NCBI RefSeq assembly: GCF_037975245.1
Contig: NC_092561.1
Span: 18,295,001 to 18,359,000, forward strand
DNA from: Apostichopus japonicus
Taxonomy: Eukaryota; Echinodermata; Holothuroidea; Aspidochirotida; Stichopodidae
Length of the DNA: 64,000 nucleotides
Direction: 5' to 3'
The translations under genes were made by a program, and so were the position numbers. Shown here piece after piece: positions 3,259 through 63,956 of this stretch (positions are counted from its first letter, which is position 1; the number at the start of each line of letters is the position of its first letter). The notes under the pieces are model-generated. The model saw only the letters and a program-made list of their open reading frames with translations, was not told the DNA's origin and ran no database searches.

Positions 3259-3313
<55 letters not shown>

Positions 3314-10642: not shown

Positions 10643-13600
10643 ATGGGAATGAAGATGAACCTGGTCAACAGAATTACACTTCGTGGCGTCTCGAGTGTCT
10701 ATCTTTTTTGTGTGCTTATTTTGCCAGAAAGTAAGTGAAAAAAGAGTTAAACAAGAATAAAACTTAACAATATCAATTGCAGTCACTGTTTTTTCCTCAA
10801 GTACATTATTAGCTTAGCCTACGGAATTAAATGTTACATGTATTATAACGTTACTACCTTTCTGAGTTATCAAGTGTTTTTTAACACAAGTAATGTTATG
10901 TTATGAAAAATACAACAATTTCATTAAAACTATTAAAATCTGACACTTACATTACCTAAAATACACTAACATTAACTGTATTTAGGTATTACAGTGATCC
11001 TATCTCTGTTTTCTTACAACAGCTACCAGTCTCATAAAGAAGTACGTTCGCAAAGGAGAATCGACATCATTAAAATGTGTTGTCGAACCTGAAAATAATT
11101 ATAGCTCGGTGTGGATATTCAACAATAAGGTTATATACACAAAGAGGCTGCCCTATCCACGCGACATAGGTATTGATAACGCATGCGGTGAGATTGTCAA
11201 CAATACTCATTCAAACTTGTACATCCATCAGTTTCAAGCTAAGAACGAAGGCAATTACACGTGTTCACTCAACCAAAAAAACTATAGTGAATACGTTCTC
11301 AAACTTATTGGTGAGTTATAAAGGATTGGCATTAAACATCTTGTTTCATTCTTACAATAATGTTACATTGTCGAATTTGAATAAGAAAAATAGAAAATAC
11401 ATTTCCAATATGTGAATTATGACTTGATTGATTGATTGATTATCAATACTACATCTAGAGTTCTTACATTCTTATACTTTATTGTTCAGATGACAGAAGT
11501 CAACCGATGAATTCTACTTCGCACTTGCAACTTCACGTAAACTTGAACAGCAGCGTTCATGAAGGCATTGTATTCTTTCCTAAAGGAGAGAGTGTATTTC
11601 TTAACTGTCTGTTCAGTATACCAGGGAATGCCTCCCTGCATTGGACAATGCAGACAACAGTTGAAGAGAATGAAGGAGAAAGAAAGAACTTTCAGAGAAA
11701 TAACTATGAAACATGTTACATCGAAGCTCAGCTATCTTTCACCCTCGTCGAGAATATTAATGTCACTTGCCATGTTACTCAAGAGAGCTTTGGAAGTCTT
11801 CAAGGAAATGTGACGATCAGTATTTCAATACAAACTAACGATTCGTCTGAGATCCTCCAAGCCGAAGGTAAATAAAAAGCCTCATTATCAGCTTCATTCA
11901 TGTAGTACTAAGCCAATTGTTGCTAATAAGAATACAATTTTGTAGACTAGATGAATGATCGGATATAAAAAAAAAATGAAATGGAACTCGAGTAAATCTT
12001 TAACAAACTTCTGTAAGTCTTTACCAGGTGTATTTATTCCACAATGCTGCTCTTAAATGAATTAGTTCTTGGTTATATTGAGAGACGATTGAATCTATAA
12101 GTTGATAACTGGTTCTGTATAAGCACGTCAGTATTCCCACAAGATACTTTGTGGCGTGGTCCACATCTATTTCGGTGTTTGAAATCTTAGAGAAGCTGCA
12201 TTGGGCGAAACGTAACAAGACATATAGTGCACTAGAGTTACATTATATCACACCTACATCACACCTACCCTCACACCACCACCCCACCCCACTTCAAACT
12301 AGCCAAATAATTCAAAAGGAAACAAATAACAGTTGCCGAATATCAACTGATAATTTAGACAATGATATTGAAGAAACATGTATAATCAAAATCATAAACT
12401 TTTACTGGAATATTTAAAGATTATCATGCATTGATACCAATATCTATTTATACGTCATTACATGGAATCAATTGGTTTGTTCCTCAGACACAAACTACAC
12501 ACTGTTGTTTGTTACTGTTTGCATTATTCCACTGGTAGTCTTTGGCTCCGTTATGCTCATCTCTGTTGCATGTTGGATAAGGAGAAGACGAAAAACAGGT
12601 TTGACACAAATATATAATGTTTTTGACACCCAAAAGAAATATTACATTATTATAAGTTGTCATTGTTACAAAAGTTGAAATATTAAATACCAAACTTGAT
12701 ATCGTGGATAAACAAAAGAAACGTATATAGGTTATGTTTTCATTTTGTACCTATCACATCACACCTGTTTGCGTCAAATTCATCACCTCTTAACTCTTAC
12801 CTGACGATATATCGAAAACGATAAGAAGGCTATGGGCGATTATTTGTGGTATAATCAACATCAGTCTCATTACCGTATCTTGTTTAGATTTGTCCGAGGA
12901 ATAAAGTCGCGATAAAGTATTATTTTAATGACTATGTGGATCGGTGATGAAATGTGTGGATCACTATAGTTTGAGACAGAAGTGACTAATATAAGATAAC
13001 ACAAAAATGAAAGAAAAAAAGCTATAGTGAAGTGGATTCTTACTATGGCACAGCTTTAAATATTATATTTAAATATTTGAAACAATCAAATAGTAAGAAA
13101 TATCAACTATCCGCGATTCAATTACTATAAAATATTTTCTTTTCATTTCTCATAGATATTCATTATACCGATGGAATCTCTATTTACTGGTGAGATTGAA
13201 ATTTCATAATACATCTTTCATATTAACTGAATGATGGTCAAAGTGTATGTTCGTAGTAATGAAGTGTTTTAATATCTATTCCCGTTGCTCAAAGTTACAT
13301 GTTCGCTGCTGTCCATGAAACTGTCGACGTGTACTGCATCTGCAATTGTCTTTCTAACAATCTGAAATTATATTTAAAAAAAGGTGAAACATGACGTAAT
13401 TCGATATGAAATGAAAGTTACGTATCATTCGTTGTATTTGTCGATATGTATGATATACTTATGTCATAAACTAGCTTACAAACACATTTTTTAATGAAGT
13501 ATGCAACTCGAGAGTGTCATGTTAATGTGTGATAGCGTCATCTACTTAAACTAAATCTTGTAAATGTAAACAACTCGGGCTTCAAATAAGACATTCGCAT

Positions 13601-13830
13601 AATGGAATTGTCACATAATATTTGTAGTCTCTATTATATCACAGAGATCCTTTGGTTGGTTTGAAGCTTTGCTTTTATTTATTTCTTTTCAAGTGCAAAA
13701 TAACTATTACGAGACCAAGTTCTGTTATTTTTTTTCCTTCTCTTTTTCACATTCTAGTGAAGTGGAACTACCAAAAGAGAGCAACGTATCGACGCAACCT
13801 ACGCCACTAGCCTACAAAAGAGTTACCTAA
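10643..13830 (+). CDS. Ig gene 1: two-Ig transmembrane receptor with two ITIM-like motifs
   Basis: Six exons give 323 residues: 10643-10730 (signal peptide), 11023-11310 (Ig1), 11490-11867 (Ig2), 12488-12598 (transmembrane), 13156-13189 and 13758-13830 (tail). Junctions are phase 1 except the last, which is phase 2; all sites are GT-AG. Ig1 has C48, W60 and NEGNYTC (C110). Ig2 has the LNC/W/VTC pattern and several N-glycosylation sites. After one helix comes a basic WIRRRRKT stop-transfer. The tail holds SIYCEV (Y299) and LAYKRV (Y319), both fitting [SILV]xYxx[ILV], the consensus of inhibitory receptors that recruit SH2 phosphatases. The inferred role is a cell-surface inhibitory receptor or adhesion molecule; ligand and family are not recognised. 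It is the divergent first member of the cluster and is outside the duplicated units. Only the exon 1 start lacks paralogue support. Confidence 0.75.
11871..11876 (+). terminator. AATAAA overlapping the Ig2 splice donor of gene 1
   Basis: The Ig2 donor reads GAAG|GTAAATAAAAAG. Failure to splice adds a lysine and a TAA stop, and AATAAA lies across that point. This is a possible signal for a secreted, tail-less form. It is suggestive only. Confidence 0.25.
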
Positions 13831-18653: not shown

Positions 18654-21600
18654 ATGAAATATAATTGCCTCTCAATTACTTTTCTACTTGTGATACTATC
18701 ACATAAAGGTTAGTTCCATTGTAAGGTACTTTAACTAATGCAACAACCCCCCACCCACACCCCGTCTATTAACACCAGCAGCATTGCCCTTTATCGAAAG
18801 GTTCCAGTGATATTTAATGGATTCCTTTAGGATGAACTTTGCAGTCTTCATATGTAATAGTCCAAGAAAACAAATTGTCAGGAATGTTTCTATAGTTGCT
18901 CCTTTAAGGCTGTTAAGTACAAGCCTGAACGCTCCTTTAAGGCTCTTCAGTGGAAGCCTACATGTTAATGTAATCTATCGTTTCTTTACTTTTTAATAGC
19001 TGCTCAACATGTTCTTTTAATTGGACAAAACAGCACAATTGGAGGACATTCAACACCATTTGGAATTACAAGCTTGACATTACATTACAGTATAAACAAA
19101 TCATTTGAGGGCATGAAAGTCATTGATTTTTGTGTTACTTCTGAAAAACTGACGTAAAGGTATGTGTATTAGACTATACACTTTGACTATATTATCCGGA
19201 CAGTTAACTTGATTAACCTCTGCTGGTTAAATAGTAATTTTCTAAACAGAAATTGTAAGTGTTGTAGAACCACATCCTGAACTGATAACAGTGGTGTTTA
19301 AATGTTTACACACCAACAAAATTTGTTCACTAATTTAGTTATCCTGTAATCAACTTATGAATATTTATATATTGTTTTTGGTTAGTGTGTTCGTCTGTGT
19401 TTGTGTTCTCTCAATAGGCATCGGTTTCTCAACAAAATGGATTCAAACCGGACAGTCAATCTTACTTGATTGTGTTTTCAAGCCTGAAGATATTGGAAAA
19501 CCGGTGTGGGGGTTCAATGGGAGAATTATATTTGCAGATTCGGTTGAAGCATATGAATTAGGTATTTCTAACGTCCACGGTGAAATTATCAATAACAGTC
19601 ATACGTCTTTGAACATCCAGCATGTTCAAGCTGAGAATGAAGGAAACTACACCTGTTTGTTCAACGGCATAGTTCAGGTTGGATATACTTTACATGTTAT
19701 AGGTGAGTTTTAAGTTAATGTAAAAACAATACATGTTGTATCAAGAAAATATTATGTAGCTTACATTGAAGAAGTTATATTCTGATAATATATGGGTTTT
19801 TTTTCTTCGCTTCTCCCCTTTTTTCATATACTTCATTTTTATTCATCATTATTATTTTAATATAAAAATTTTGCTATCTCAATTTCATTTAAGATCCTAT
19901 ACAAGTGAAACTTTGTATAAATGGCAACAACAGTAAACAACAACAACGACCTAAATGGGAGAAATTAATACTTACGTGTCTGGCTTTAAATGTAACAGGC
20001 AACACGTCTGTATACTGGACCATACAGAGTGAAGTTGATAAGAATGTCACCGAAAAGACAGCCAGACAATTTCAAGATGAAACATTAGAAGCCGAGCTGT
20101 CTCTTGTTCTTGTCGAGAATATCAACGTGACCTGTCACGTGACACTCGATGAGTTTGAAGATGCGGGAGAAAACGCGACGATCAGTGTCAGCTTGAAACC
20201 TGTGAACAGCATTTCTGAAGGTACTACCACCGCCTCAGTTTGGCTCTCTGAATGCCCTGGATGTGATGGCTCATTGCATGGTAAAGCAAAGTATTGGCAA
20301 TGGGTTGTTCTAAAATCGTCGTAAGGCTTCCTGGAATGTTCACTTTGTGAAAATTAAGTATAGAAACCATTGTCAAAATCAGTAGGTTTTAAGTCTGTAT
20401 TTGCTATTGCTGGATAAATGTAGCAAATGTCACCTATTCAAATGAAATGATATAAGATGACATGACATACGTTACTTAATTATCCCATTAAGCCTTTAGA
20501 AGTTGTTCCAAAATTGATCACTTGTTGAACAAACCATTGGAAATGTTTTGATTTTCCTTCATTCTATTTGTGAGTTTAGCTTACAGGCACCGCTCTCATT
20601 CTTAAATAGATTGTAAATAGACTGTTCTGCGCCATATTTAGAACTGACGTATTCAGTCCTAAAGTGATTGAAGCAAAATCTACGTTGTCTTGTGCATAGA
20701 CTAAACATGACCTTAATGATATTCCATAACTTTGTGAACAAAAAGCTCACCTACTGGCAACAAGCTTTGATTGCGGCAGAATAGTGCAATGTTATATATG
20801 TACCTTATGTGTGTTATAAATCGCTATACAGCATACTATTGTTAGGCTTAATAAACTCACTCAATCACTTTAAATCAGTGAACCACATTGTGATGTCTAA
20901 TTTACAACAGATCATTAGCTAATCGTTAAAACGGAATTCACCTTGGAGGACAATAAAGTCAGAATATTGAAATACACACAGCAAATTTTATATAATAAGG
21001 ATCACTTGCATACAATAAAGATTGCAAAAATATGTTTTTAGCTGACTATTATTACTTACAAACATAAATGTATTGCTCCATCGATGAACTCGTTTTAACG
21101 GTACAAGATGCAATAATATAAGTTCGTCCCCAATACATCTTTAACTATGATCTGTTTCGTCTTCAGAGTCAAAATATATCTGGATTTTTGTACTAGCTGG
21201 AATAACCATTACAGTCCTATGTCTAGTCGTGTGCTTTATTGGATATTGGTGGCGAAAAGGAAACAGCAAACAAGGTATATATAATTCCATCCATCCTTCT
21301 ATTTATATATATATCTATATATATATATATATATTACCCGATGACAAACTATTTAAAAGGCGTCTGTTATCTATATTATATAATTATAAATGGTCATATA
21401 TTGATTTCATCTATTCGATTATGTACATAAATTAGTCAAGTTCTTTATATTTGTTGTTTTTAATTTTTATTATTAGCAACTTAATTCTGTCACTGAAAAA
21501 TGCTATACCCTCACACTAATCGCAACAGTCGACATCTGAAATATGAAGTAAAGTTGATCCCACTCCAATTACTATTGCGGAGTCCTCAGATCATGTTAAC

Positions 21601-22304
21601 CGTAGATGGTTGTCTCGATTGTTGAACACCCGTCCTCCCTCCTTTGTTATATTTCTTCTTTCTTTCTTTCTCCCTTCTATTCATTTTTTGCTCATAATCA
21701 TTGTATAGACAGGAGAAATTATTATATCTCTTTAATTTCTCATTAATATTTTTCATATAACAGGCAGCTACGGTAACCCCACTTACAGGTAAGATTTGGC
21801 ATTCATGTTGCAAATAGTAAATATGTGAACTATTCCCCACTGTCTTTGTAAAATAATATTGTACAGGAAAGGCATTATAAACAATCCTACATAGCATATG
21901 GGATGTCGACAGCTTCGTATCGTTTTTTACCGTTTCAGGTCTATCTGAAATATACTTCAGGCAAATCGATATAGCCTGATGCATCATTCTAAAGTCACTA
22001 GACATAGCTTATTAGCAACATCATTGCAATCCTGCTAGGTAATTAATAAATATAGATATCGAGGTAATTATTTGTAAAGCTTTGCTCTCGATTATTTGTT
22101 ACAAGAGGTGAAGTGCTATTACAGCTATAAAAGACAAAGAAAAATATCTCATGAGCATATAGTGAAGGCATAAATACATAAGTACACACAGTTGCATTGT
22201 ATTGGATAGATGAGAAGACCATTACGTTCAATGTGAAATATGTGTACTAAACGTATTTCATTCATTTTCACTTTGCTAGTTCGGTGAAACTGCGGAGATA
22301 TTAA
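18654..22304 (+). CDS. Ig gene 2: two-Ig transmembrane protein
   Basis: Exons: 18654-18708 (signal peptide MKYNCLSITFLLVILSHK), 19418-19702 (Ig1), 19894-20220 (Ig2), 21167-21274 (transmembrane), 21764-21788 and 22280-22304 (tail), giving 274 residues. Ig1 has C37, W49 and NEGNYTC (C98). Ig2 has C142, W155 and C194 and several NxT/S sites. The helix (WIFVLAGITITVLCLVVCFIGYWW) is followed by RKGNSKQ and a short tail, GSYGNPTYSSVKLRRY, with a YSSV motif at the place of the first ITIM of gene 1. A second in-frame donor at 20280 would add 20 residues with a CPGC motif. An in-frame ATG at 19357 could give an alternative signal peptide. It is probably a surface receptor; function and ligand are unknown. 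Confidence 0.78.
19000..19157 (+). other. possible alternative exon in intron 1 of Ig gene 2
   Basis: After an acceptor-like TTACTTTTTAATAG the sequence stays open in phase 1 for 52 codons (AAQHVLLI..., ending ...CVTSEKLT) to a TAA. Spliced to exon 1 it would give a small secreted protein. The same frame is open over the same length in gene 4 (43435-43592) and gene 5 (52550-52707) but broken in genes 3 and 6. No family is recognised. It may be a relic exon. Confidence 0.3.
20850..20855 (+). terminator. AATAAA in the intron after Ig2 (gene 2)
   Basis: GGCTTAATAAACTCA is kept in all five units, downstream of the read-through stop that follows the Ig2 exon. It could end a secreted transcript. 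Since introns here are conserved anyway through recent duplication, conservation is weak evidence. Confidence 0.3.
21299..21336. repeat. TA microsatellite after the transmembrane exon, unit A
   Basis: Follows CCATCCATCCTTCTAT. A (TA)n tract sits at the same place in every unit, with very different lengths. Confidence 0.85.
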
Positions 22305-23222: not shown

Positions 23223-23475
23223 ATGATCAATGCGGCGAAGCACTTCATGCAGCTCTACGCGACTGTCATAACTATTTTATTCAGCAATGTCGAGACATGT
23301 CCATCCGAATGTTAATGTGATTGTCGTAATGTTGTATGTGAAGTAAAACGCCTACTGATTGGAGTCTCTCCGCTAACAGTAATTCCGCAACCGTTTCAAA
23401 TGACACAACCATGTTACGTGTGAATGGACATCGCATAACAACTGCAATAGAAGGTGACTTTCGTGAACCACTTTG
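23223..23475 (+). pseudogene. LRRNT-type exon, broken copy (unit A)
   Basis: Aligns with the intact ORFs at 37807 and 47565. It starts MINAAKHF and keeps the signal peptide to NVETCPSEC, then has a TAA stop and a later frameshift. It is a pseudogene copy of the leucine-rich repeat N-terminal module. Confidence 0.75.
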
Positions 23476-27585: not shown

Positions 27586-30500
27586 CTAAAGATGTTGATA
27601 CTTGGATAAAAGATGATTTTTCAACTTGAATGAAAATGAATTAAGGTACTTAATATTTCTTAATGTATGACTTAGGCTATTCCAAAAATTAACACCATAA
27701 CAGACGATGGAACGTTTAAAGACATCGGTATTTATGGGCAATGAAAATAAATTTCCAGAGGATCTGGTGTGGTAGTTATGTATATTATAATTGAAATGAA
27801 AGTAATTATTAAAATTGACTGGTAATTTATTATTAATAGACTTAAAAATAAAAACTGCACAGTGGTATCTATGTAAATCAAAAATATCTAGTAAGTTCAG
27901 TGAGCTGAATAGTGGTGGGGTATGTGCTAAGAAATCAGACTGTGTAATAACACGGACAGCCTTCTTTTGTAATAAAAGCAATTGCTTTAGGTAGGTAGAA
28001 TATGCATTACCCCAAACAATATTACAATAATTAAGATGAGGTAGTATGAGAGTATTATACAAGTTCTTGAGAATATACATTGGAACAAAGTCTTTGATTT
28101 TATAAAGGACTCCAACAGTTTTTGAGATGGTAGTTTTAATCTTGGAGATGTGGGAAGACCACTTTAGAGCAGGATCAATAAATAAACCTAGGAATTTTAT
28201 AACCTCAACACGCTTTAACTGTGAGTTGCCAATACATATATCTATGTTCTTGATTTTTTTGTGGTTTGGGTGAAAAATCATAAAGTGGGTTTTGTTAATA
28301 TTCAAAGATAATTTATTTACTTGACACCAAGTAGAGACTTTAGCTAATTCAAAATTTATAGTAGATGCAGCATGATTTATATCTTTGTGTTTATATAGTA
28401 TACTGGTGTCATCTGCGAAAAGTGTAAAATACAAGGTGTTTGAACAATTTATAATATCATTTATATACAAGGAGAAAAGCAGTGGACCTAAAATTGACCC
28501 TTGTGGTACTCCACATGTAATTTTACTGAAATTAGAATAATGATTATCAATATGAACACATTGGCGTCTATCGGATAGATAATTAACAAACCAGTTAAAT
28601 GCAACCCCTCTTATACCATAACGATACAATTTGTTGAAGAGAATTCCATGATTGACAGTATCAAAGGCTTTAGAAAAATCTAAAAATACACCCAAAGAAT
28701 ATTCCTTATTGTTAAAGCCGTTAATGATATATTGAGAAACATCCAAAGCTGCCATATCTGTAGAACGCCCCTTACGAAATCCAAATTGTCTATCAGTAAT
28801 AATGTTGTTCTTGTCTAAAAAATGTACAGTACGGTTATATATTATACGTTCTAAGAGTTTAGATAAAGATGAAAGAACTGAGATGGGCCTGTAATTGTTA
28901 ATAGATAGCTTATCACCACTTTTGAAAATTGGAGTAACTTTAGCTTCTTTAGTACGAGTTGGAACAACACCTGTAGATATTGATAAATTAAAAATATATG
29001 TAAGAGGGGCAGCTATAATAAAACGATTTTCTTGGAGAAACTGAACAGAAATATTATCAAGACCGCAAGAGCCTTTTTTCAATTGCATTATTAAATTGAT
29101 AATTTCAGAGGAGTTGGTTGGTGAGAGAAATAGAGATGATGGGGTACTATCAGTAAGAAAATCTGTAAATTTTGAGTGGCAAGTGGGAATAGAACTTGCA
29201 AGGTTGTTACCTATATTAGCAAAAAAGTCATTAAATTTCTCGGCCATGTCAAATTTATTTGTAATTAACAAATCATTATCTTTAATTTTATCAATTGGAG
29301 TATTGATTGAAGTACGACCAAGAATTTTATTAATCGTATACCATGTTTTCTTTAAATTATTTTTATTGTCTTTGAAACAGTTTTCATAATACATCTTCTT
29401 GGCTAATCTGATAATTTTTGTCAGTTTATTTTTATAAAGAGTATATTTACATTTATTGGTACTGGAAGGATTAAGAAGGTACTTTTTATATAATTTATTC
29501 TTTTTTGAAATTGAAGTTAAAATACTTGATGTTATCCAAGGTGAGCGAATAGTATTGGATTTTCTTTTAAATTGCTTAACTACACAGTGCTTAGAAATTA
29601 TATTGTTAATATTATCGACAAAAAAGTTATATGCAGTATCAACATCTCGGAGATTGTATAATAGGTTCCAATCAAAAGAAGAAAGTTCTAAATTGATGTT
29701 ACGTAAAGAATCTTTACTGGTCCTCTTATGGTAAAAAAAGTTATTGGAGCATGGTAATGAGTGCGCCTTAAAATCCCTACAACAATAAACAGGCAAGTGG
29801 TCACTTATGTCTGATAATAGAATCCCCGAGCTTAAGTTAACAAAAGTATCATTACAAAAGATGTTGTCAATGAGTGAGGCTGATTGTGGAGTAATTCTAG
29901 TTGGTTTTGAAATAAGTGGAAAGTAAGAATGGGAATACATTAGATCTAAGAAATTGGATACATTAGAATCATGATCACTTTTTAACAAGTCAATATTAAA
30001 GTCACCACAGATATAGCAAGTCTTACTGACAACACTTAAATTAATCATTAGACTGGACAGTTCATCATTAAAATTGGATATTGGAATGTCAGGGGGCTTA
30101 TAAATAACTCCTATAGAAAGAGATTTGTTGTCAAATTTTACATCAATAAATAAAGATTCAAATAATAAAGGGTTGGACATCAAATCATTACTAACAGTAA
30201 AAGATACTGAATTATGGACATAAAAACCAACACCACCACCCCGTTTAGTATCCCTGTCCCTATGCGTAAAAGTATAATCTGGGATTTGAATTAAATCAAG
30301 ATTAGTATCGGAATGCAACCAGGTCTCCGTAATAGCTATAACTGTAAATTTAAATGATGAAGATGCCAAGAAATCGCGAATAGTATCATAATTACGCATT
30401 AAGCTACGGGCATTAAGGTGAATAATAGAAAAGGTGCTATGTGAAAAATTGTGTAGATTATGTAAATCACTTACATCAGAATATAAAGAGGAATCAAAAT

Positions 30501-30645
30501 TAGATGAATAATTATCAACCTGATCATCATCTCCATTTGAGATTAAATCACACTCAGAAAAAATATGGTTCAGAAGAGTAGGATTTCCCAAAGTGGTAGA
30601 AATATCATTGGAAGTGTTCGAGTCCAAAGTGTTAATTGGATTCAT
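27586..30645 (-). CDS. LINE ORF2: endonuclease and reverse transcriptase
   Basis: The product is 1019 residues with no stops. The N-terminal apurinic-type endonuclease shows HLNARSL, ITETWL, a YKPP strand, CGDFNIDLL and the SDHLPVY active-site motif (roughly residues 70-310). The reverse transcriptase follows, with NNYRPISVLS, FGFRKGRSTD, FLDFSKAFDTV, GVPQGSILGPLLF and the catalytic FADDT. The C-terminal region (YHTRSSGN, FWNSLS) is typical of CR1/L2-like elements, and no RNase H domain is seen. It would nick target DNA and copy the element RNA in place. All key residues are present, so activity is possible. It lies 45 nt after ORF1, so it would need reinitiation or a similar mechanism for translation. 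Confidence 0.92.
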   Translation of the reverse strand: MNPINTLDSNTSNDISTTLGNPTLLNHIFSECDLISNGDDDQVDNYSSNFDSSLYSDVSDLHNLHNFSHSTFSIIHLNARSLMRNYDTIRDFLASSSFKFTVIAITETWLHSDTNLDLIQIPDYTFTHRDRDTKRGGGVGFYVHNSVSFTVSNDLMSNPLLFESLFIDVKFDNKSLSIGVIYKPPDIPISNFNDELSSLMINLSVVSKTCYICGDFNIDLLKSDHDSNVSNFLDLMYSHSYFPLISKPTRITPQSASLIDNIFCNDTFVNLSSGILLSDISDHLPVYCCRDFKAHSLPCSNNFFYHKRTSKDSLRNINLELSSFDWNLLYNLRDVDTAYNFFVDNINNIISKHCVVKQFKRKSNTIRSPWITSSILTSISKKNKLYKKYLLNPSSTNKCKYTLYKNKLTKIIRLAKKMYYENCFKDNKNNLKKTWYTINKILGRTSINTPIDKIKDNDLLITNKFDMAEKFNDFFANIGNNLASSIPTCHSKFTDFLTDSTPSSLFLSPTNSSEIINLIMQLKKGSCGLDNISVQFLQENRFIIAAPLTYIFNLSISTGVVPTRTKEAKVTPIFKSGDKLSINNYRPISVLSSLSKLLERIIYNRTVHFLDKNNIITDRQFGFRKGRSTDMAALDVSQYIINGFNNKEYSLGVFLDFSKAFDTVNHGILFNKLYRYGIRGVAFNWFVNYLSDRRQCVHIDNHYSNFSKITCGVPQGSILGPLLFSLYINDIINCSNTLYFTLFADDTSILYKHKDINHAASTINFELAKVSTWCQVNKLSLNINKTHFMIFHPNHKKIKNIDICIGNSQLKRVEVIKFLGLFIDPALKWSSHISKIKTTISKTVGVLYKIKDFVPMYILKNLYNTLILPHLNYCNIVWGNAYSTYLKQLLLLQKKAVRVITQSDFLAHTPPLFSSLNLLDIFDLHRYHCAVFIFKSINNKLPVNFNNYFHFNYNIHNYHTRSSGNLFSLPINTDVFKRSIVCYGVNFWNSLSHTLRNIKYLNSFSFKLKNHLLSKYQHL

Positions 30646-30690
30646 TAGGTCCTAGTGTCCTCGAAAAGAAAATACAAATTACTTCTTGAA

Positions 30691-35860: not shown

Positions 35861-35927
<67 letters not shown>

Positions 35928-37806: not shown

Positions 37807-38058
37807 ATGATCAAGACGGCGAAGCACTTTCAGCTCTACGCGATTGTCATGACTATTTTATTCAGCAATGTCGAGACATGTCCATTTGAATCTCCATGTG
37901 AAGGTGGTAATGTTGTATGTGAAGTAAAACGCCTACCGATTGGGGTATCACCGCTAACAGTCATTCCGCAACCGCTTTCAAATGACACAACCATGTTACG
38001 TGTGAATGGACATCGCATAAGAACTGTAATAGAAGGTGACTTTCGTGAACCACTTTGA
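37807..38058 (+). CDS. truncated secreted LRRNT-like ORF (unit B)
   Basis: An 83-residue ORF. MIKTAKHFQLYAIVMTILFS is a good signal peptide. Then CPFESPCEGGNVVCEV is a cysteine-rich cap and TTMLRVNGHRIRTVIEGDF resembles the first leucine-rich repeat, as in Toll-like and other LRR ectodomains. The frame stops after FREPL. The following bases (QLR..LT-like in another frame) look like the start of the next repeat, so this is probably the 5' remnant of an LRR gene and not a complete gene. A near-identical ORF is at 47565, and broken copies are at 23223 and 56739. It lies about 0.9 kb after Ig gene 3. Confidence 0.5.
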   Translation: MIKTAKHFQLYAIVMTILFSNVETCPFESPCEGGNVVCEVKRLPIGVSPLTVIPQPLSNDTTMLRVNGHRIRTVIEGDFREPL

Positions 38059-43089: not shown

Positions 43090-46000
43090 ATGAAATATAA
43101 TTGCCTCTCGATTACCTTTCTACTTGTGATACTATCACATAAAGGTTAGTTCCATTGTAAGGTACTTTAACTAATGCAACAACCCCCACCCACACCCCGT
43201 CTATTAACACCAGCAGCATTGCCCTTTTTCGAAAGGTTCCAGTGGTATTTAATCGATTCCTTTAGGATGAACTTTGCAGTCTTCATATGTAATAGTCCAA
43301 GAAAAAAAATTGTCAGGAATGTTTCTATAGTTGCTCCTTTAAGGCTGTTAAGTACAAGCCTGAACGCTCCTTTAAGGCTCTTCAGTGGAAGCCTACATGT
43401 TAATGTAATCTATCGTTTCTTTACTTTTTAATAGCTGCTCAACATGTTCTTTTAATTGAACAAAACAGCACAATTGGAGGACATTCAACACCATTTGGAA
43501 TTACAAACTTGACATTACATTACAGTATAAAGAAATCATTTGAGGCCAGAAAAGTCATTGATTTTTGTGTTACGTCTGAAAAACTGACGTAATAGTATGT
43601 GTGTTCGACTATACACTATGACCATATCATCCGAACAGTTAACTTGATGAACCTTTACTGGTTAAATGGTCATTTTCTAAACAGAAATTGCAAGTGTTGT
43701 AGAACCACATCCTGAACTGACAACAGTCGTGTTTAAATGTTTACATACCAAAACAATGTGTTCACTAATTTATTTATCCTGTAATCAACTTATGAATATT
43801 TATATATTGTTTTTGGTTAGTGTGTTCCTCTGTGTTTGTGTTCTCTCAAAGGCATCGGTTGCCTAACGAAGTGGATTCCAAACGGACAGTCAATCTCACT
43901 TGAGTGTGATTTCAAGCCTGAAGATATTGGAAGACCGGTGTGGAGCTTCAATGGGAGAATTATATATGCAGAATCTTTTAACGCAGATGATTTAGATATT
44001 TCTAACGTCCGCGGTGAAATTATCAACAACAGTCATACGTTTTTGCACATCCAACATTTCCAAGCTAAGAATGACGGAAACTACACCTGTTTATTCAACG
44101 ACACATTTCAGGTTGGATATACTCTACATGTTATAGGTGAGTTTTAAATTAATGTAAAAAACAATACATGTTGTTCCAAGAAAATATTATGTAGCTTACA
44201 TTGAAGAAGTTATACACTGATAATATATGTTTTTGTTTTCTTCTCTTCTCCCCTTTTTCATATATTTCATTTTCATTCATCATTATTACTTTAATATACA
44301 AATTTTGCTTCCATGGTTTCATTTCAGATCCTATACACGTGAAGCTTTGGGTAAACAACAACAACAGTAAACATCAACAACGACCTAAAGGGGAGAAATT
44401 AATACTTACTTGTCTGGCGTTAAATGTAACAGGCAATACGTCTGTATACTGGACCATACAGAGTGCAGTTGATACGATTGTCACCGAAGAGACAGCCAGA
44501 CAATTTCAAAATAAAACAATAAAAGCCCAACTGTCTCTTGTTCTTGTCGAGAATATCAACGTGACCTGTCACGTGACGCTCGATGAGTTTGAAGATGCGG
44601 GAGAAAACGCGACGATCAATGTCAGCTTGAAACCTGTGAACAGCTTTACCGAAGGTACTACCACCGCCTCAGTTTGGCTCACTGAATGCCATGGATGTGA
44701 AGGTTCGTTGCATGGTAATGCAAAGTATTGGCAGCGGGTTCTAAAATCGTAATAAGGCTTCCTGGAATGTTCACTTTGTGAAATTAAATAAAGAAACCAT
44801 TGTCAAAATCAGTGGGTTTTAAAGTCTGTATTTGCTATTGGTGGATAAATGTAGCAAATGTCACCTATTCAAATGAAATGAAATAAGATGATATGACATA
44901 CGTGATATTATTATCCCATTAATTCTTTAGAAGTTGTTCCAAACTTTATCACTTGTTGAACAGACCATTGAAAATGTTTTGATTTTCCTTCATTCTGTTC
45001 GCGTGTTTATAGCTTAAAGGCACCGCTCTCATTCTTAAATAGATTGTAAATAGACTGTTCTGCGCCATATTAAGAACTGACGTATTCAGTCCTAAAGTGA
45101 TTGAAGCAAAATCTACGTTGTCTTGTTCATAGACTAAAAATGACCTTGCAACATCTTAATGATGTTCCATAACAAAAAGCTCACCTACTGGAAACAAGCT
45201 TTGATTGCGGCAGAATAGTGCAATGTTATATATGTACCGTATGTGTGTTATAAATCGCTATACAGCAGACTATTGTTAGGCTTAATAAACTCACTTTATC
45301 ACTTTAAATCAGTGAACCACATTGTGATGTCTAATTTACAACAAATCATTAGCTAATCGTTAAAGCGGAATTCACCTTGGAGGACAATAAAGTCAGAATA
45401 TTGAAATACACACAGCAAATTTTATATAATAAGGATCACTTGCATACAATAAAGATTGCAAAAATAGGTTTTTAGCTGACTATTATTACTTACAAATATA
45501 AATATATTGCTCCATTGATGAACTGGTTTGAACGGTACAAGATGCTATAATATAAGTTCGTCCCCAATACATCTTTAACTATGATCTGTTTGGTCTTCAG
45601 AGACAAAATATATCTGGATTTTTGTACTAGCTGGAATAACCATTACAGTCCTATGTCTAGCCGTGTGCTTTATTGGATATTGGTGGCGAAAAGGAAACAG
45701 TAAGCAAGGTTTATATATTTCTATCCATCCTTCTATATATATACATATATACATTATAATTAAAATTGTACTGAGTTAAAAAATCAATAACAGTGAACAA
45801 AGTTCTTTAAATTTGTTATTTTTATGTTTATTAATATTAGCGACTTCATTCTGTCACTGTAAAATGCTACCCTTACACTTTTCGCAACAGTCCACATCTG
45901 AAATATGAAGTAAAGTTGATGCTACTCTCCAGTTACTATTTCGGAGTCTTCAGATTATGTTAACCGTAGATGGTTGTCTCGATTGTTGAACACCCGTCCT

Positions 46001-46653
46001 CCCTACTTTGTTATATTTCTTCTTTCTTCCTTCCATTCATTTTTTTCTCATAATCCTTTAATAGTATACAGTAGAAATTATAATATATCTTTCGTTTCGC
46101 ATCAATCTTTCTAATATAACAGGCAGCTACCACACTTACAGGTAAGATTTTTCAGTAATTTTGCAAATCGTCAATATGTGTACTATTCCCCAATGGCTTT
46201 TTTAAAATGAACTTGTAGAGAAAAACAATCCTACAGAGTATCTGGGATGTAAACAGCTTCATATCGTTTTTCCGTTTCATGTCTATCATAACTTCAACGA
46301 ACTTCAAAGGCAAAGCGATATAACCTAATGCATTATTGTAAGGTCACTAGACATAGCTTATTATCAACATCATTGCAATCCAGCTAGATAATTAATACGT
46401 ATAGATATCGAGTTCATTATTTTTAAAGCTTTGCTCTCGATTATCTTTTACAAGAGGTGAAGTGCTATTAGGGCTATAGAAGACAAAGAAGAGTATCTAA
46501 TGAGCATATAGTGAAGGCATATATACATAAGTACACACAGTTGCATGGCATTGGATAGATGAGTAGAGCATTACGTTCAATGATAAATATGTGTATTAAA
46601 CGTATTTCTTTCATTTTCACTTTGCTAGTTCAGTGAAACTGTGGAGATATTAA
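43090..46653 (+). CDS. Ig gene 4: two-Ig transmembrane protein
   Basis: Exons: 43090-43144, 43852-44136 (Ig1), 44328-44654 (Ig2, or to 44714), 45601-45708 (transmembrane), 46123-46141 and 46629-46653 (tail), 272 residues. Ig1 keeps both canonical cysteines (LECDF, NDGNYTC) and has an extra cysteine near its start (GIGCLTKW). The Ig1 exon and its flanks are essentially identical to those of gene 5. The start of Ig2 and its upstream intron match gene 6, while the end matches gene 3. The tail reads GSYHTYSSVKLWRY. A one-base deletion before Ig1 (CTCAAAG) breaks the in-frame alternative signal peptide seen in genes 2, 3 and 6. A surface receptor of unknown ligand. Confidence 0.78.
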
Positions 46654-47564
46654 CTTCGTTCGATTTGGCGACAACAATATCATACCGCTGCAAAGGAACT
46701 TAATCTAACTACGGCAGACAACTCAATGAGACCTTATAGCTACCCAATAAATCCGAAGATTTCGTGTACAGAAGACTTGAATATGTTTAATGCAATACCC
46801 GTTTTATATCTTGGGAATATTTCTAAATTCTCTTCATCTTTATTTTTTACTTTTAAGTATATATTAACTGGTTTATATTAATCTCGAAAACAAGTATTGA
46901 GCGATTACAGCATCATTTGATAATTCCATGATAATTAATATCATTCAAGAATGGAAAAGTGTCAAATCATTTGAATTATAGAAATACCCTGTGAAGCTTG
47001 GCATTAACATCACTATATGTATAGAAGATAAGACTTAAACATATATGTTACTTTAACTCCCTCCCCCCCCCCAACACCCCAACGCACCCCACCAGAAGCA
47101 AAGGTGAATAAGTAAATAACTTACAATAAATATAAACTTTGAAAGTTCGTTTACTGAGCATAGGAGTGTCTCAAGTATTGTCAGTTAGGATTTAAAGTTA
47201 ATAAATGCTGGTGATAGTATTCACAGCATTGATATGTGGAATGCCATTCAATGTGAAGTAATGCTACACGCCAGTTTATTAGTTTACACAAACTGTCGGT
47301 GCTACCTTGCATTGCTTGTTCTTAAGATATTTTTTCTGCTTTCAAATACTATGCAATTTAAGACGCAATTACATAAATAGTGATGTCATTTCCTTAAACG
47401 CTGTCTATGTACTTCCGCCTATCAAATATATAAATTGTTTTACAGCCATTAATAACGTCATTCCGTCTTCAACGTTGATCCATAATCGTCACATTGCCTC
47501 AATTGTTATAACGCACGCTTGTAACAATACTGACTAAAGTCTCATTGAAGTAAAGAATAGCATA

Positions 47565-47816
47565 ATGATCAAGACGGCGAAGCACTTTCAGCTCTACGCA
47601 ATTGTCATGACTATTTTATTCAGCAATGTCGAGACATGTCCATTTGAATCTCCATGTGAAGGTGGTAATGTTGTATGTGAAGTAAAACGCCTACCGATTG
47701 GGGTATCACCGCTAACAGTCATTCCGCAACCGCTTTCAAATGACACAACCATGTTACGTGTGGATGGACATCGCATAAGAACTGTAATAGAAGGTGACTT
47801 TCGTGAACCACTTTGA
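47565..47816 (+). CDS. truncated secreted LRRNT-like ORF (unit C)
   Basis: An 83-residue ORF differing from the unit B copy by one residue (VDGH for VNGH). The signal peptide, CPFESPCEGG cysteine cap and first LRR-like segment are all present. It ends at the same stop after FREPL. See the unit B entry for interpretation; expression is not shown by the sequence. Confidence 0.5.
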   Translation: MIKTAKHFQLYAIVMTILFSNVETCPFESPCEGGNVVCEVKRLPIGVSPLTVIPQPLSNDTTMLRVDGHRIRTVIEGDFREPL

Positions 47817-52229: not shown

Positions 52230-54860
52230 ATGAAATATAATTGCCTTTCGATTACTTTTCTACTTGTGATAATATCACATAAAGGTTAGTTCCATGGTAA
52301 GGTACTTTAACTAATGCAACCACCCCCCCCCACCCACCGACACCCCGTCTCTTAACACCAGCAGCCTTGCCCTTTTGCGAAAGGTTTCAGTGGTATTTAA
52401 TGGATGCCTTTAGGATGAACTTTGCAGTCTTCATATGTAATAGTCCAAGAAAAAAAATTGTCAGGAATGTTTCTATAGCTGCTCCTTTAAGGCTGTTCAG
52501 TGGAAGCCTACATGTTAATGTAATCTATCGTTTCTTTACTTTTTAATAGCTGCTCAACATGTTCTTTTAATTGAACAAAACAGCACAATTGGAGGACATT
52601 CAACACCATTTGGAATTAGAAGCTTGACATTACATTACAGTATAAAGAAGTCATTTGAGGCCAGAAAAGTCATTGATTTTTGTGTTACGTCTGAAAAACT
52701 GACGTAATAGTATGTGTGTTCGACTATACACTATGACTATATTATCCTGACAGTTAACTTGATGAACCTTTACTGGTTAAATGGTCATTTTCTAAACAGA
52801 AATTGCAAGTGTTGTAGAACCACATCCTGAACTGACAACAGTCGTGTTTAAATGTTTACATACCAAAACAATGTGTTCACTAATTTAGTTATCCTGTAAT
52901 CAACTTATGAATATTTATATATTGTTTTTGGTTAGTGTGTTCCTCTGTGTTTGTGTTCTCTCAAAGGCATCGGTTGCCTAACGAAGTGGATTCCAAACGG
53001 ACAGTCAATCTCACTTGAGTGTGATTTCAAGCCTGAAGATATTGGAAGACCGGTGTGGAGCTTCAATGGGAGAATTATATATGCAGAATCTTTTAACGCA
53101 GATGATTTAGATATTTCTAACGTCCGCGGTGAAATTATCAACAACAGTCATACGTTTTTGCACATCCAACATTTCCAAGCTAAGAATGACGGAAACTACA
53201 CCTGTTTATTCAACGACACATTTCAGGTTGGATATACTCTACATGTTATAGGTGAGTTTTAAATTAATGTAAAAAACAATACATGTTGTTCCAAGAAAAT
53301 ATTATGTAGCTTACATTGAAGAAGTTATACACTGATAATATATGTTTTTGTTTTCTTCCCTTCTCCCCTTTTTTCATATATTTCATTTTTATTCATCATT
53401 ATTATTTTAATATACAAATTTTGCTATCTCGATTTCATTTAAGATCCTATACAAGTGAAACTTTGGGTAAATGGCAACAACAGTAAACAACAACAACGAC
53501 CTAAGGGGGAGAAATTAATACTTACGTGTCTGGCTTTAAATGTAACAGGCAACACGTTTGTATACTGGACCATACAGAGTGAAGTTGATAAGAATGTCAC
53601 CGAAGAGACAGCCAGACAATTTCAAGATGAAACATTAGAAGCCGATCTGTCTCTTGTTCTCGTCGAGAATATTAACGTGACCTGTCACGTGACACTCGAT
53701 GAGTTTGAAGATGCGGGAGAAAACGCGACGATCAATGTCAGCTTGAAACATGTGAACAGCTTTACTGAAGGTACTACCACCGCCTCAGTAAGGCTCACTG
53801 AATGCACTGGATGCAATGGCTCGTTGCATGGTAAAGCAAAGTATTGGCAGTGGGTTGTTCTAAAATCGTCTTAAGGCTTCCTGGAATGTTCACTTTGTGA
53901 AATTAAATATAGAAACCATTGTCAAAATCAGTGGGTTTTAAAGTCTGTATTTGCTATTGGTGGATAAATGTAGCAAATGTCACCTATTCAAATGAAATGA
54001 TATAGATGATATGACATACGTTACATTATTATCCCCTTAAGTCTATAGAAATTGTTCCAAAATTGATCAATTGTTGAACAAACCATTGGAAATGTTTTGG
54101 TTTTCCTTCATTCTATTGGCGAGTTTAGCTTACAGGCACCGCTCTCATTCTTAAATAGATTGTAAATAGACTGTTCTGCGCCATATTAAGAACTGACGTA
54201 TTCAGTCCTAAAGTGATTGAAGCAAAATCTACGTTGTCTTGTGCAAAGACTAAAAATGACCTTGCAACATCTTAATGATATTCCATAACTTTGTGAACAA
54301 ATAGCTCACCTACTGGAAACAAGCTTCGATTGCGGCAGAATAGTGCAATGTTATATATGTACCGTATGTGTGTTATAAATCGCTATACAGCAGACTATTG
54401 TTAGGCTTAATAAACTCACTCAATCACTTTAAATCAGTGAACCACATTGTGATGTCTAATTTACAACAAATCATTAGCTAATCGTGAAAACGAAATTCAC
54501 CTTGGAGGACAATAAAGAGAGAATATTGAAAGACACACAGCAAATTTTATATAATAAGGATCACTTGCATACAATAAAGAATGCGAAAATATGTTTTTAG
54601 CTGACTATTATTACTTACAAACATAAATGTATTGCTCCATCGATAAACTCGTTTGAACGGTACAAGATGCTATAATATAAGTTCGTCCCCAATACATCTT
54701 TAACTATGATCTGTTTGGTCTTCAGAGACAAAATATATCTGGATGTTTGTACTACCTGGAATAACCATTACAGTCCTATGTCTTGTCGTGTGCTTTATTG
54801 GATATTGGAGGCGAAAAGGAAACAGTAAGCAAGGTTTATATATTTCCATCCATACTTCTA

Positions 54861-54911
<51 letters not shown>

Positions 54912-55833
54912 TATATATATACTTTATAATTGAATTGTACTGAATTAAAAAATCCATAACAGTGAAAAAAGTTCTTTATATTTGTTGATTTTATGTTTAT
55001 TAATATTAGCGACTTCATTCTGTCACTGTAAAATGCTACCCTCACACTTATCGCAACAGTCCACATCTGAAATATGAAGTAAAGCTGATGCTACTTTCCA
55101 GTTACTATTTCGGAGTCCTCAGATCATGTTAACCGTAGATGGTTGTCTCGATTGTTGAGCACCCGTCCTCCCTCCTATGTCAATGTTACTTCTTTCTTTC
55201 TTCCTTCCATTCATTTTTTGCTCCTAATCCTTTAATAGACAGGAAAAATTGTAATATCTCTTTCGTTTCTCATCAATCTTTCTAATATAACAGGCAGCTA
55301 CCCCACTTACAGGTAAGATTTGGCATTCATTTTGCAAATACTAAATATATGTACTATTTCCCACTGTCTTTGTAAAATGATATTGTACAGGAAAGGCATT
55401 ATAAACAATCCTACATAGCATATGGGATGTCGACAGCTTCATATCGTTTTTACCGTTTCAGATTTATCTGAACTTTACCAGACTTCAAAGGCAAAGCGAT
55501 ATAACCTAATGCATTATTGTAAGGTCACTAGACATAGCTTAGTAGCAACATATTTGCAATCTAACTAGATAATTAATAATTACAGATATCGAGTTAACTA
55601 TTTTGAAAGCTTTGCTCTCGATTATCTGTTACAAGAGGTTAAGTGCTATTACAGCTATAAAAGACAAAGAAAAATATCTCATGAGCATAATAAAAGGCAT
55701 AAATACATAAGTACACACAGTTGCACTGTATTGGATAGATAAGTAGACCATTACGTTCAATGATAAATATGTGTGCTAAACGTATTTCTTTCATTTTCAC
55801 TTTGCTAGTTCGGTAAAACTGCGAAGATATTAA
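52230..55833 (+). CDS. Ig gene 5: two-Ig transmembrane protein
   Basis: Exons: 52230-52284, 52967-53251 (Ig1), 53444-53770 (Ig2, or to 53830), 54726-54833 (transmembrane), 55294-55312 and 55809-55833 (tail), 272 residues. Ig1 is the same protein as in gene 4. Ig2 is closest to gene 2 (QFQDETLEA) and has NTFVYW where the others have NTSVYW, which removes a glycosylation site. The helix has a proline (FVLPGIT). The tail reads GSYPTYSSVKLRRY. All splice sites are intact, so the gene looks functional. The broken LRRNT copy follows about 0.9 kb downstream. Confidence 0.78.
54865..54921. repeat. TA microsatellite after the transmembrane exon, unit D
   Basis: A (TA)n tract at the paralogous place, longer than in units A and C. 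Confidence 0.9.
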
Positions 55834-56738: not shown

Positions 56739-56986
56739 ATGATCAAGACCGCGAAGCACTTTCAGCTCCACGATTGTCATGACTATTTTATTCAGCAATG
56801 TCAAGACATGTCCATTTGATCCCCATGTGAAGGTGGTAATGTTGTATGTGAAGTAAAAGCCTAGCGATTGGGGTATCACCGCTAACAGTCATTCCGCCAC
56901 CGCTTTCAAATGACACAACAATGTTACGTGTGAATGGACATCGCATAAGAACTGTAATAGAAGGTGACTTTCGTGAACCACTTTGA
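56739..56986 (+). pseudogene. LRRNT-type exon, broken copy (unit D)
   Basis: Starts MIKTAKHFQL, then a 2-nt deletion (CTCCACGATT) shifts the frame, and there is a further small indel. The rest aligns with the intact copies to the shared CCACTTTGA end. Confidence 0.75.
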
Positions 56987-60667: not shown

Positions 60668-60673
60668 TATAAA
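60668..60673 (+). promoter_or_regulatory. TATA box candidate, Ig gene 6
   Basis: TATAAA in the conserved context, about 305 nt before the ATG; promoter block of the unit B/D/E type. Confidence 0.5.
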
Positions 60674-60972
60674 ATGGCGACCGGCAAGGTAACATGTAAA
60701 TAAAGCTGTGCGCGCCTGTGTGTGAATCCACCTGATGAGATATCCCTCAGAATACATGTAAATGTAGCGCACTACAGTAAGAGAGTCTGAATTTAATGTG
60801 TAGAGTTGGGTGTGTGTGTTTGAAAAGTGATTATTAAAACAAGGAATATACTGTTGTAAAATTTTATACGAACAACGTGACTTGATACAAGAATGCTACC
60901 CTTTAAGTTTTGGCAGTATCCGCGTTTTGATTTCCTTTTTATAGGGGAAAAAGGACGCTGTGGACTAACACA

Positions 60973-63956
60973 ATGAAATATCATTGCTTCTCGATTGCTT
61001 TTCTACTTGTGGTACTGTCACATGAAGGTTAGTCCTATGGTAATGTACTTTAACTAATGCAACCCTCCCCTACTCCCTCTCTTAACATCAGCAGCCTCGC
61101 CCTTTTGCGAAAGGTTTCAGTGGCATTTAATGGATTACTTTTGGCTGAACATTTTAGTCTTGATATGTAATAGTCCAAGAAAAACAAATTGTCAGTAATG
61201 TTTCTGTTATCGTTCCCAAGATACTCATCATACTCAATGTCTGGACTTCTTCTTTGAGGCTTTTCAGTACAAGCCTGAATGCTCCTTTAAGTATCTGCAG
61301 TGAAAGCCTAACTGTTAATTTAATATATTGGTTTATTACTTTTAATAGCTCAGCATGTTATGTTAAGTTCATGTTAACAACATAGCCCCATTGGAGGACA
61401 TTCCACATCATTTGGAATTACAAACTATACACACACCAGATACACATAGAGAACACAGTTACCACTATAAATCTTAAAGTTTTGTACCACAGTAAAAACT
61501 GGATCGTGCAATCAATCGGCAGCATGTGCTATTAGGATTACAGTAATAACTGGGGATTTGTGTAATTCCAACAAATCCAGTTGTTTGGGATTTATTGGAA
61601 TCACAAATATCCTCAGTTCTTACTGTAAACCTAATAGCACATGCTACCGATTTATCAGATTTGTCAGCACAATACATTTTTTTTTACGGTGGTACAAAAC
61701 TTTAAGATTTACAGTAGTTACTGTAATCTCTGTATGAATCGGCTGTTACATTACATTACGTTATAAATATACTATTTGAGGCCATGAAAGTAATTGATTT
61801 TTGTGTTTTCTTTGTAAGGAACTGACGTAATGGTATGTGTGTTCGACTATACACTATGACCATATCATCCAAACAGTTAACTCGATGAACCATAACTGGT
61901 TAAATGGTCATTTTCTAAACAGAAATTGCAAGTGTTGTAGAACCACATTCTGAACTGATAACAGTGGTGTTTAAATGTTTACATACCCCCCCCCCAAAAA
62001 AATTCATTTAATTAGTTATCCTGTATTCAACTTATGAATAGTTATATATTGTTTTTGGTTAGTGTGTTCCTCTGTGTTTGTGTTCTCTCAATAGGCATCG
62101 GTTTCATAACGAAGCGGATTCCAACCGGACAGTCAATCTTACTTGAGTATGTTTTCAAGCTTGAAGATACTGGAAAACCGGTGTGGATGTTCAATGGGAA
62201 TATTATATTTGCAGATTTTGTTGACGCAGATGACTTAGGTATTTCTAACGTCCACGGTGAAATCAATAACAGTCATACGTTATTGAACATCCAGCATGTT
62301 CAAGCTGAGAATGAAGGAAACTACACCTGTTTGTTCAACGGCATAGTTCAGGTTGGATATACTCTACATGTTATAGGTGAGTTTTAAATTAATGTAAAAA
62401 ACAATACATGTTGTTTCAAGAAAATTATGTAGCTTATATTGAAGGAGTTATACACTGATAATATATGTTTTTGTTTTCTTCTCTTCTCCCCTTTTTTCAT
62501 ATATTTCATTTTCATTCATCATTATTATTTTAATATACAAATTTTGCTTCCATGGTTTCATTTCAGATCCTATACACGTGAAGCTTTGGGTAAACAACAA
62601 CAACAGTAAACATCAACAACGACCTAAGGGGGAGAAATTAATACTTACGTGTCTGGCGTTAAATGTAACAGGCAATACGTCTGTATACTGGACCATACAG
62701 AGTGCAGTTGATACGAATGTCACCAAAGAGACAGCCAGGCGATTTCAAAATAAAACAGTAAAAGCCCAACTGTCTCTTGTTCTTGTCGAGAATATCAACG
62801 TGACCTGTCACGTAACGCTCGATAAATTTGAAGATGTGGAAGAAAATGTGACGATCAGTGTCAGCTTGAAACCTGTGAACAGCTTTTCTGAAGGTACTAC
62901 CACCACCCCAGTAAGGCTCACTGAATGCCCTGGATGCGATGGCTCGTTGCATGGTAAAGCAAAGTATTGGCAGTGGGTTGTTCTAAAATCGTCTTAAGGC
63001 TTCCTGGAATGTTCACTTTGTGAAATTAAATATAGAAACCATTGTCGAAATCAGTGGGTTTTAAAGTCTGTATTTGCTATTGGTGGATAAATGTAGCAAA
63101 TGTCACCTATTCAAATGAAATGATATAGATGATATGAGGTACGTGATATTATTATCCCATTAATTACTTAGAAGTTGTTCCAATCTTGATCACTTGTTGA
63201 ACAAACCATTGGAAATGTTTTGATTTTCCTTCATTCTATTTGTGAGTTTAGCTTACAGGCACCGCTCTCATTCTTAAATAGATTGTAAAGAGACTGTTCT
63301 GTGCCATATTAAGAACTGACGTATTCAGTCCTATGGTGATTGAAGCAAAATCTACGTTGTCTTGTGCATAGACTAAAAATGACCTTGCAACATCTTAATG
63401 ATATTCCATAACTTTGTGAACAAATAGCTCACCTACTGGAAACGGGCTTTGATTGCGGCAGAATAGTGCAATGTTATATATGTACCGTATGTGTGTTATA
63501 AATCGCTATACAGCAGACTATTGTTAGGCTTAATAAACTCAATCAATCACTTTAAATCAGTGAACCACATTGTGATGTCTAATTTACAACAAATCATTAG
63601 CTAATCGTTAAAACGGAATTCACGTTGGAGGACAATAAAGTCAGAATATTGAAATACACACAGCAAATTTTATATAATAAGGATCACTTGCATACAATAA
63701 AGATTGCAAAAATATGTTCTTAGCTGACTATTATAACTTACAAATATAAATGTATTGCTCCATCGATGAACTCGTTTTAACGGTACAAGATGCTATAATA
63801 TAAATTCGTCCCCAATACATCTTTAACTATGATCTGTTTGGTCTTCAGAGACAAAATATATCTGGATTTTTGTACTAACTGGAATAACCATTACAGTCCT
63901 ATGTCTAGTCGTGTGCTTTATTGGATATTGGTGCCGAAAAGGAAACAGTAAGCAAG
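60973..63956 (+). CDS. Ig gene 6: two-Ig transmembrane protein, 3' end outside window
   Basis: Exons: 60973-61027 (signal peptide MKYHCFSIAFLLVVLSHE, the most diverged), 62095-62376 (Ig1), 62567-62893 (Ig2, or to 62953) and 63849-63956 (transmembrane). The two tail exons lie beyond the right edge. In Ig1 the first canonical cysteine is replaced by tyrosine (LLEYVF for LLECVF) and one isoleucine codon is missing (GEINNS), so the domain cannot form its core disulfide. Ig2 is intact but differs near the end (DKFEDVEENVT). The helix ends GYWCRKGNSKQ. An in-frame upstream ATG (62034) could give an alternative signal peptide. Functional status is uncertain. Confidence 0.72.
61445..61736. mobile_element. 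foldback (palindromic) MITE in intron 1 of gene 6
   Basis: Two arms of about 140 bp are inverted copies: AAATCTTAAAGTTTTGTACC near 61470 matches the reverse complement of the sequence ending near 61710. AGCATGTGCTATTAGG and GGATTTATTGGAAT-like blocks also pair. The outer ends read TAGAGAACACAG and CTGTAATCTCTGTA, so a TA target is possible (Tc1/mariner-like). The element is absent from the other four units. The minus-strand ORF inside is incidental. Confidence 0.75.

Follow-up and report, generated by a model that had tools for sequence, protein, structure and literature searches.

Six members of a 13-gene tandem immunoglobulin receptor cluster in the sea cucumber Apostichopus japonicus, best read as kinase-less offshoots of a pseudokinase receptor family

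The 64,000-nucleotide stretch of the Apostichopus japonicus genome analyzed here (C1:18,295,001-18,359,000, contig NC_092561.1; hereafter the window) carries six genes, g1-g6, predicted to encode receptors with two immunoglobulin (Ig) domains. They are best read as belonging to a tandem cluster of 13 genes and as kinase-less offshoots of a family combining Ig domains, a membrane helix, and a pseudokinase. This identity and origin are highly probable in our judgment, and the decoy or paired-receptor mechanism proposed below is tentative; the explanation as a whole, comprising the identity of the genes, the loss of the kinase, and the receptor mechanism, is given a probability of about one half. 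An earlier note on this DNA spoke of an unrecognised family: the family is in fact of a known kind, the receptor-kinase type, although its kinase-less branch is an undescribed one, and no description of the cluster or of this branch was found in the open-licence literature searched.

The gene models were built by exon-by-exon alignment combined with splice-site checks, the splicing being predicted from the sequence. Each of the six genes lies on the plus strand and consists of six exons coding for the signal peptide, the first Ig domain (Ig1), the second (Ig2), the membrane helix, and two parts of the tail (tail 1 and tail 2). The joins from the signal peptide through to tail 1 are all in phase 1, and that between tail 1 and tail 2 is in phase 2. 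This common plan with its nearly uniform phase 1, like the five tandem units, had been described in the earlier note and was recovered in full. Open, in-phase proteins of 323, 274, 272, and 272 amino acids are encoded by g1, g2, g4, and g5, respectively. In a self-comparison, the five units extend from about 17 to 64 kb, and pieces longer than 1.4 kb are about 82-96% identical. The steps from one Ig1 exon to the next between g2 and g6 measure 14.5, 9.9, 9.1, and 9.1 kb, and the longest of these (g2 to g3) contains a minus-strand long interspersed nuclear element (LINE) at 27586-31437. The identity between the units and the row of 13 genes also bear out the claim of a recently expanding tandem cluster. 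With identities to g2 of 39% in Ig1 and 42% in Ig2, g1 is an old, diverged member, and an intact one. That the host is an invertebrate deuterostome, another claim made from the letters alone, agrees with the mitochondrial COX1 gene, which fits the echinoderm code, and with the echinoderm-type mitochondrial gene order, which we take to be that of sea urchins and sea cucumbers.

Scanning the window and 90 kb downstream with a profile revealed seven further genes on the same strand (g7-g13). A helix exon lies behind each of them, Ig2 was identified in g10 and g12 too, and g7 and g8 carry one extra Ig1-type exon. Tyrosine-kinase-like exons follow the helix of g8, g9, g10, g12, and g13 (5 of the 13 cluster genes). 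The Pfam model PK_Tyr_Ser-Thr matched g13 (1.5e-37) and g12 (7e-37), the two genes scanned, and the best solved structures for the g13 domain were EGFR and FGFR4 (about 2e-28). In all five siblings HRD is changed to HPG or HPA, the catalytic-loop Asn to Lys, and DFG to DFW or DIW with its Asp kept; the beta-3 lysine is seemingly kept in four of them and ambiguous in g8. The intact forms of these motifs are those we take to be standard, and they are also visible in the EGFR alignment. The kinase-like domain of the siblings looks like a pseudokinase. Five of the 13 cluster genes would thus count as receptor tyrosine kinases by their intracellular kinase domain and g1-g6 would not, and none of the five domain-bearing siblings retains the HRD Asp, loop Asn, and DFG of an active enzyme.

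No kinase exon was detected in g1-g6, where six kinase-exon queries gave only chance-level matches in the window (E 1.8 or worse). Over the window and on to 80 kb, no kinase match was better than E 0.12, the value of one weak match behind g7, and g11 showed none. A search of the genome for the kinase yielded at least 153 matches and, among those listed, the ones on C1 fell inside the cluster only at g8, g9, g10, g12, and g13. The candidate first juxtamembrane exon of g9, g10, g12, and g13 passes from phase 1 to phase 2, as does tail 1 of g1-g6, and this shared phase step suggests that g1-g6 stop at the point at which the siblings continue into the kinase.

Relatives occur elsewhere in the genome: in a whole-genome protein search, in which 75 matches were listed, additional groups came from C20, and C16, C11, and C12 gave weak ones. 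Pairing was counted off C1 on 80 Ig rows and 63 kinase rows listed by hand from the search results; 13 of the 80 Ig rows have a same-strand kinase at most 15 kb downstream, corresponding to 11 kinase places on C11, C16, and C20, and 4 pairings were of other kinds. Since five siblings and relatives elsewhere pair Ig with kinase, g1-g6 appear to be derivatives of a receptor-kinase-type family, and with Ig-helix-kinase as the common plan, the simpler account is that g1-g6, g7, and g11 lost the kinase. In a tree of 26 Ig1 domains (g5, identical to g4, being left out), one branch (96/96) separates the 14 C1 domains from the rest, and another (96/96) does so for the 11 C20 domains. At least three losses of the kinase are indicated, as g7 falls together with g8, and g11 together with g10 and g12.

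Some further arrangements were noted among these relatives. On C20 (25890000-25899999), four near-identical Ig1-type exons about 430 bases apart lie on the reverse strand at positions 3143-4829 of the locus; no helix exon was found behind this array within the locus, and the exons might be spliced as alternatives. Many related kinase exons are present on C12 (about 5.6-23 Mb) and C16 (4.6-9.9 Mb), mostly with no Ig match nearby among the rows listed. The strongest matches of a search with Pfam Ig_2 lie at C23:14.82-14.88 Mb and C22:18.55-18.58 Mb, where other Ig exons are densely arrayed on one strand.

Comparison with Ig families by hidden Markov models, a check proposed in the earlier note, gave a clear answer for Ig1 and a weak one for Ig2. 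The Pfam model Ig_3 matched Ig1 at E <=0.01 in 16 of the 16 family members given (C1, C20, and C16), and on its sequence Ig1 is certain to be an Ig domain. For Ig2, four of 10 members matched the CD80-like model C2-set_2, the best at 5.8e-4, and the Ig2 profile had no significant match in the PDB; its two conserved cysteines, its place, and its exon phase weakly support classing it as Ig-like. Membership of the Ig superfamily is thus indicated by Ig1 (16/16), a helix (13/13), and an exon for a signal peptide in each of g1-g6, and weakly by Ig2. Mean pLDDT (the AlphaFold2 confidence score) was 37.3 for Ig1 (5 sequences) and 45.0 for Ig2 (6 sequences), and these models were too poor to be used. 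In the PDB, the best match of g2 was CD276 (E 5.3e-4), and the best solved-structure matches of the Ig1 profile were DSCAM, contactins, and IgLON proteins.

These last matches might speak for adhesion or guidance receptors acting in the nervous system or in regeneration. In the accessible part of the 2017 A. japonicus genome paper, tyrosine-protein kinase receptors are one of five families described as strongly expanded and clustered, and a connection is drawn to signal recognition and to the nervous system (PMC5638244), a text that favors the same reading. The present cluster is probably part of that expansion, of which it would be a putative member: as far as that text goes, the two agree in species, clustering, expansion, and the tyrosine-kinase-like domain of the cluster siblings, and differ in that the window genes have no kinase and that of the siblings lacks catalytic residues (PMC5638244). 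A role in adhesion or guidance is nevertheless very unlikely, since DSCAM, contactins, and IgLON represent a common Ig type devoid of functional meaning, and fast mosaic turnover of copies would be unusual for conserved guidance receptors.

In mammals, the KIR and LILR families consist of tandem Ig receptor genes with phase-1 Ig exons and exon mosaics, and carry immunoreceptor tyrosine-based inhibitory motifs (ITIMs) in inhibitory forms and a charged helix residue in activating ones. The window genes might likewise encode inhibitory immune receptors, which bind a ligand by their Ig domains and recruit SH2 phosphatases by phosphorylated tail tyrosines. They share with KIR and LILR the tandem copies, the phase-1 Ig exons, the exon mosaics, the two Ig domains, the single helix, and the short tyrosine tails. 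Two ITIM-form motifs are present in g1, YSSV in g2, g4, and g5, and NPTY also in g2 (the ITIM-like and other motif forms being those we assume to be usual). However, five of the six tails (g2-g6) contain no ITIM form, and neither YSSV nor NPTY occurs in g3 and g6. The tyrosine tails expected from the earlier note were found in g1, g2, g4, and g5, but the tail of g3 has no tyrosine and g6 has lost one through a change from Tyr to Asp, so that tail tyrosines are not universal among the copies. None of the 13 helix cores contains a charged residue, which gives no sign of activating partners, and the siblings bear a kinase-like domain, which sets them apart from KIR and LILR. The likeness to those families, on which the earlier note had drawn, is therefore weak, and this interpretation is an unlikely one.

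The copies are mosaics at the level of exons, a pattern that conversion or unequal crossing-over produces. Between g4 and g5, the Ig1 codons of which are identical, 68 consecutive polymorphic sites are shared across Ig1 (2000 permutations, p 0.0005), while g4 sides with g6 at two-against-three sites in intron 2 (7/11) and Ig2 (11/20). Shared runs were longer than chance at the 0.05 level in 9 of 10 pairs, which are not independent of each other. The pooled ratio of nonsynonymous to synonymous substitution rates (dN/dS) was 1.20 (0.63-2.62) in Ig1 and 0.52 (0.27-1.05) in Ig2: Ig1 is more variable than Ig2, and its ratio is not certainly above 1.

Such ratios, which lie close to 1 for Ig1 and are not distinctly lower than 1 for Ig2, would also be expected if this were a young cluster in decay, its members being former kinase receptors that drift as functionless relics. 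The frame shift in g3, the loss of a structural cysteine in g6, and the broken leucine-rich-repeat (LRR)-like fragments lying within these units are in line with such a decay. It is made improbable by the fact that all six exons are open and in phase in g1, g2, g4, and g5, that the tail indels between units are multiples of three, and that g1 is intact despite its age.

Under the preferred explanation, the ancestor would have been an Ig-Ig-helix-kinase receptor, the catalytic residues of which were lost in the siblings, and the kinase itself would have disappeared on three or more occasions (in g7, in g11, and in the lineage of the window genes). The encoded proteins would be surface receptors binding their ligand mainly via the more variable Ig1, and the binding face might be renewed by tandem duplication and single-exon conversion. 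The kinase-less forms may share a type of ligand with their kinase-like siblings and compete or pair with them for it, which would dampen or tune those siblings, and g1 might contribute an ITIM-like signal. The shared ectodomain together with four kinds of tail suggests one ligand class with different outputs. To our knowledge, sea cucumbers have no antibodies. The most likely setting, which is a guess, would be the recognition of self and non-self or of microbes on coelomocytes, and the putative immune or allorecognition role raised in the earlier note is plausible. In another sea cucumber, a tyrosine-protein kinase receptor annotated as TIE1 is reported, in the available part of the paper, among the top genes of an immune-rich coelomocyte-type cluster (PMC11925454); for the present family this observation is a lead only. 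A bolder version, in which dead receptor kinases form a paired-receptor system with pseudokinase, ITIM-like, short tyrosine, or near-absent tails, converted Ig exons, and individual sets for self or microbes, as an independent counterpart of KIR and LILR, seems to us doubtful.

If the preferred explanation is true, it would trace a route from a growth-factor-type receptor kinase to a fast-evolving recognition cluster, along which catalysis was lost first and the kinase next, the Ig face being kept and reshuffled. Tallies of "tyrosine kinase receptors" for this genome could contain kinase-dead genes and overlook kinase-less ones, and the locus, with its 13 genes, is compact and suited to typing in individuals and to work on coelomocytes.

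Several points weigh against this explanation. If the tree was rooted otherwise, the kinase-bearing state could be the derived one, and 11 of the 23 inner branches of the Ig1 tree are open. The juxtamembrane exons were chosen from scans that gave other candidates too, and Ig2 matched an unrelated model, TraL_transposon, about as well (7.4e-4) as C2-set_2. The gene models, with their predicted splicing, products, and ligand binding, come from the DNA letters only. Two of the six genes (g3 and g6) are damaged, the tail motifs vary between copies, and the copies could be drifting, since the dN/dS of Ig1 is not certainly above 1 and Ig2 is only borderline constrained.

Among known systems, vertebrate PTK7/CCK4 combines an Ig ectodomain, one helix, and a kinase-like domain with broken catalytic motifs. 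By architecture, on which the comparison was made, g8, g9, g10, g12, and g13 resemble it in all three parts, whereas the genes described here have two or three Ig domains, form a tandem cluster, and in the window lack the kinase-like domain. VCBP, Sp185/333 (SpTrf), and FREP are expanded recognition-type gene families of invertebrates and are similar in this respect, although their domains and architectures are different.

The positions of the exons, all on the plus strand, are counted from the window start. The signal peptide exon of g1 (10643-10730), which begins with the first base of the start codon, ends at a GTAAGT donor in phase 1 and is followed by Ig1 (11023-11310, where the whole g1 protein matches Pfam Ig_3 at 2.3e-9), the weakly supported, C2-like Ig2 (11490-11867), and the helix (12488-12598). 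Its tail 1 (13156-13189; 34 nucleotides, phase 1 to 2) and tail 2 with the stop (13758-13830) together encode the two ITIM-like motifs. In g2, the signal peptide (18654-18708) is followed by Ig1 (19418-19702, where the whole g2 protein matches V-set at 7.1e-8), Ig2 (19894-20220, with a second in-phase donor at 20280), the helix (21167-21274), tail 1 (21764-21788), and tail 2 with the stop (22280-22304). The g3 exons for the signal peptide (33191-33245), Ig1 (33956-34240), and Ig2 (34430-34756) precede a helix exon with a 5-base deletion (35677-35779), through which tail 1 (36292-36310) loses its frame and tail 2 (36864-36888) is out of frame; read as it is, g3 would have a still hydrophobic helix, a six-residue tail, and a stop. 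In g4, the order is signal peptide (43090-43144), Ig1 (43852-44136, identical to that of g5 over the 282 bases compared), Ig2 (44328-44654, nearest to that of g6 by shared sites), helix (45601-45708), tail 1 (46123-46141), and tail 2 with the stop (46629-46653). The corresponding exons of g5 lie at 52230-52284, 52967-53251, 53444-53770, 54726-54833, 55294-55312, and 55809-55833 (stop included). In g6, the signal peptide (60973-61027) precedes an Ig1 exon (62095-62376) in which the first cysteine has become Tyr and one codon is deleted, Ig2 (62567-62893), and the helix (63849-63956, the last base of that exon); its tail exons lie just beyond the window end (64376-64394 and 64956-64980).

The Ig2 exon of g2-g6 could end at either of two donors, which lie 60 bases from each other and are both in phase 1, and folding of the RNA in this region gave no signal (z 0.03). 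Past the first donor, the frame remains open for about 34 codons up to a stop (20220-20321 in g2, and likewise in g3-g6), so that transcripts left unspliced or polyadenylated late would encode a secreted protein with two Ig domains. A separate signal peptide within the Ig1 exon, suggested by an upstream in-frame ATG in g2, g3, and g6, was rejected: a one-base difference breaks the frame in g4 and g5, and the stretch holding this ATG reads as a pyrimidine tract.

Each unit also contains a fragment that combines a signal peptide with the apparent start of an LRR protein, which is open at 37780-38058 and 47538-47816 and broken at 23223-23473, 56739-56983, and, beyond the window, 65932-66144; the fragment has no Pfam match, and the LRR reading was made by eye. 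The LINE between g2 and g3 retains long open frames, with Pfam matches to reverse transcriptase (7.2e-36) and endonuclease (1.7e-12). To the left of the cluster, a sodium:solute symporter gene occupies 3709-6826 on the plus strand (Pfam SSF, 2.3e-19 and 2.8e-15), and an exon at 915-1427 on the minus strand, which has no Pfam match, presumably resembles TMTC proteins.

Two membrane proteins of A. japonicus, AjNLRC4 and AjNLR-new, are described in the accessible text as carrying Ig-like and Ig domains along with NACHT (PMC8699970, PMC13133943). As far as this text goes, they resemble the genes described here as same-species membrane proteins with Ig-type domains, and differ in that NACHT is theirs. 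A link to such Ig-NACHT receptors was rejected, no NACHT being present on C1 or C20 among the 106 matches listed. In the lists made by hand, Ig and NACHT matches at most 30 kb apart formed 10 pairings on C16, C12, and C21, and an Ig-NACHT fusion is not shown there, since the NACHT genes all lie on the opposite strand. Several of these pairings are head-to-head at 6.4-7.5 kb; at C16:37369500-37372499, for example, there are two Ig-like exons on the minus strand, and a NACHT match lies at C16:37378296.

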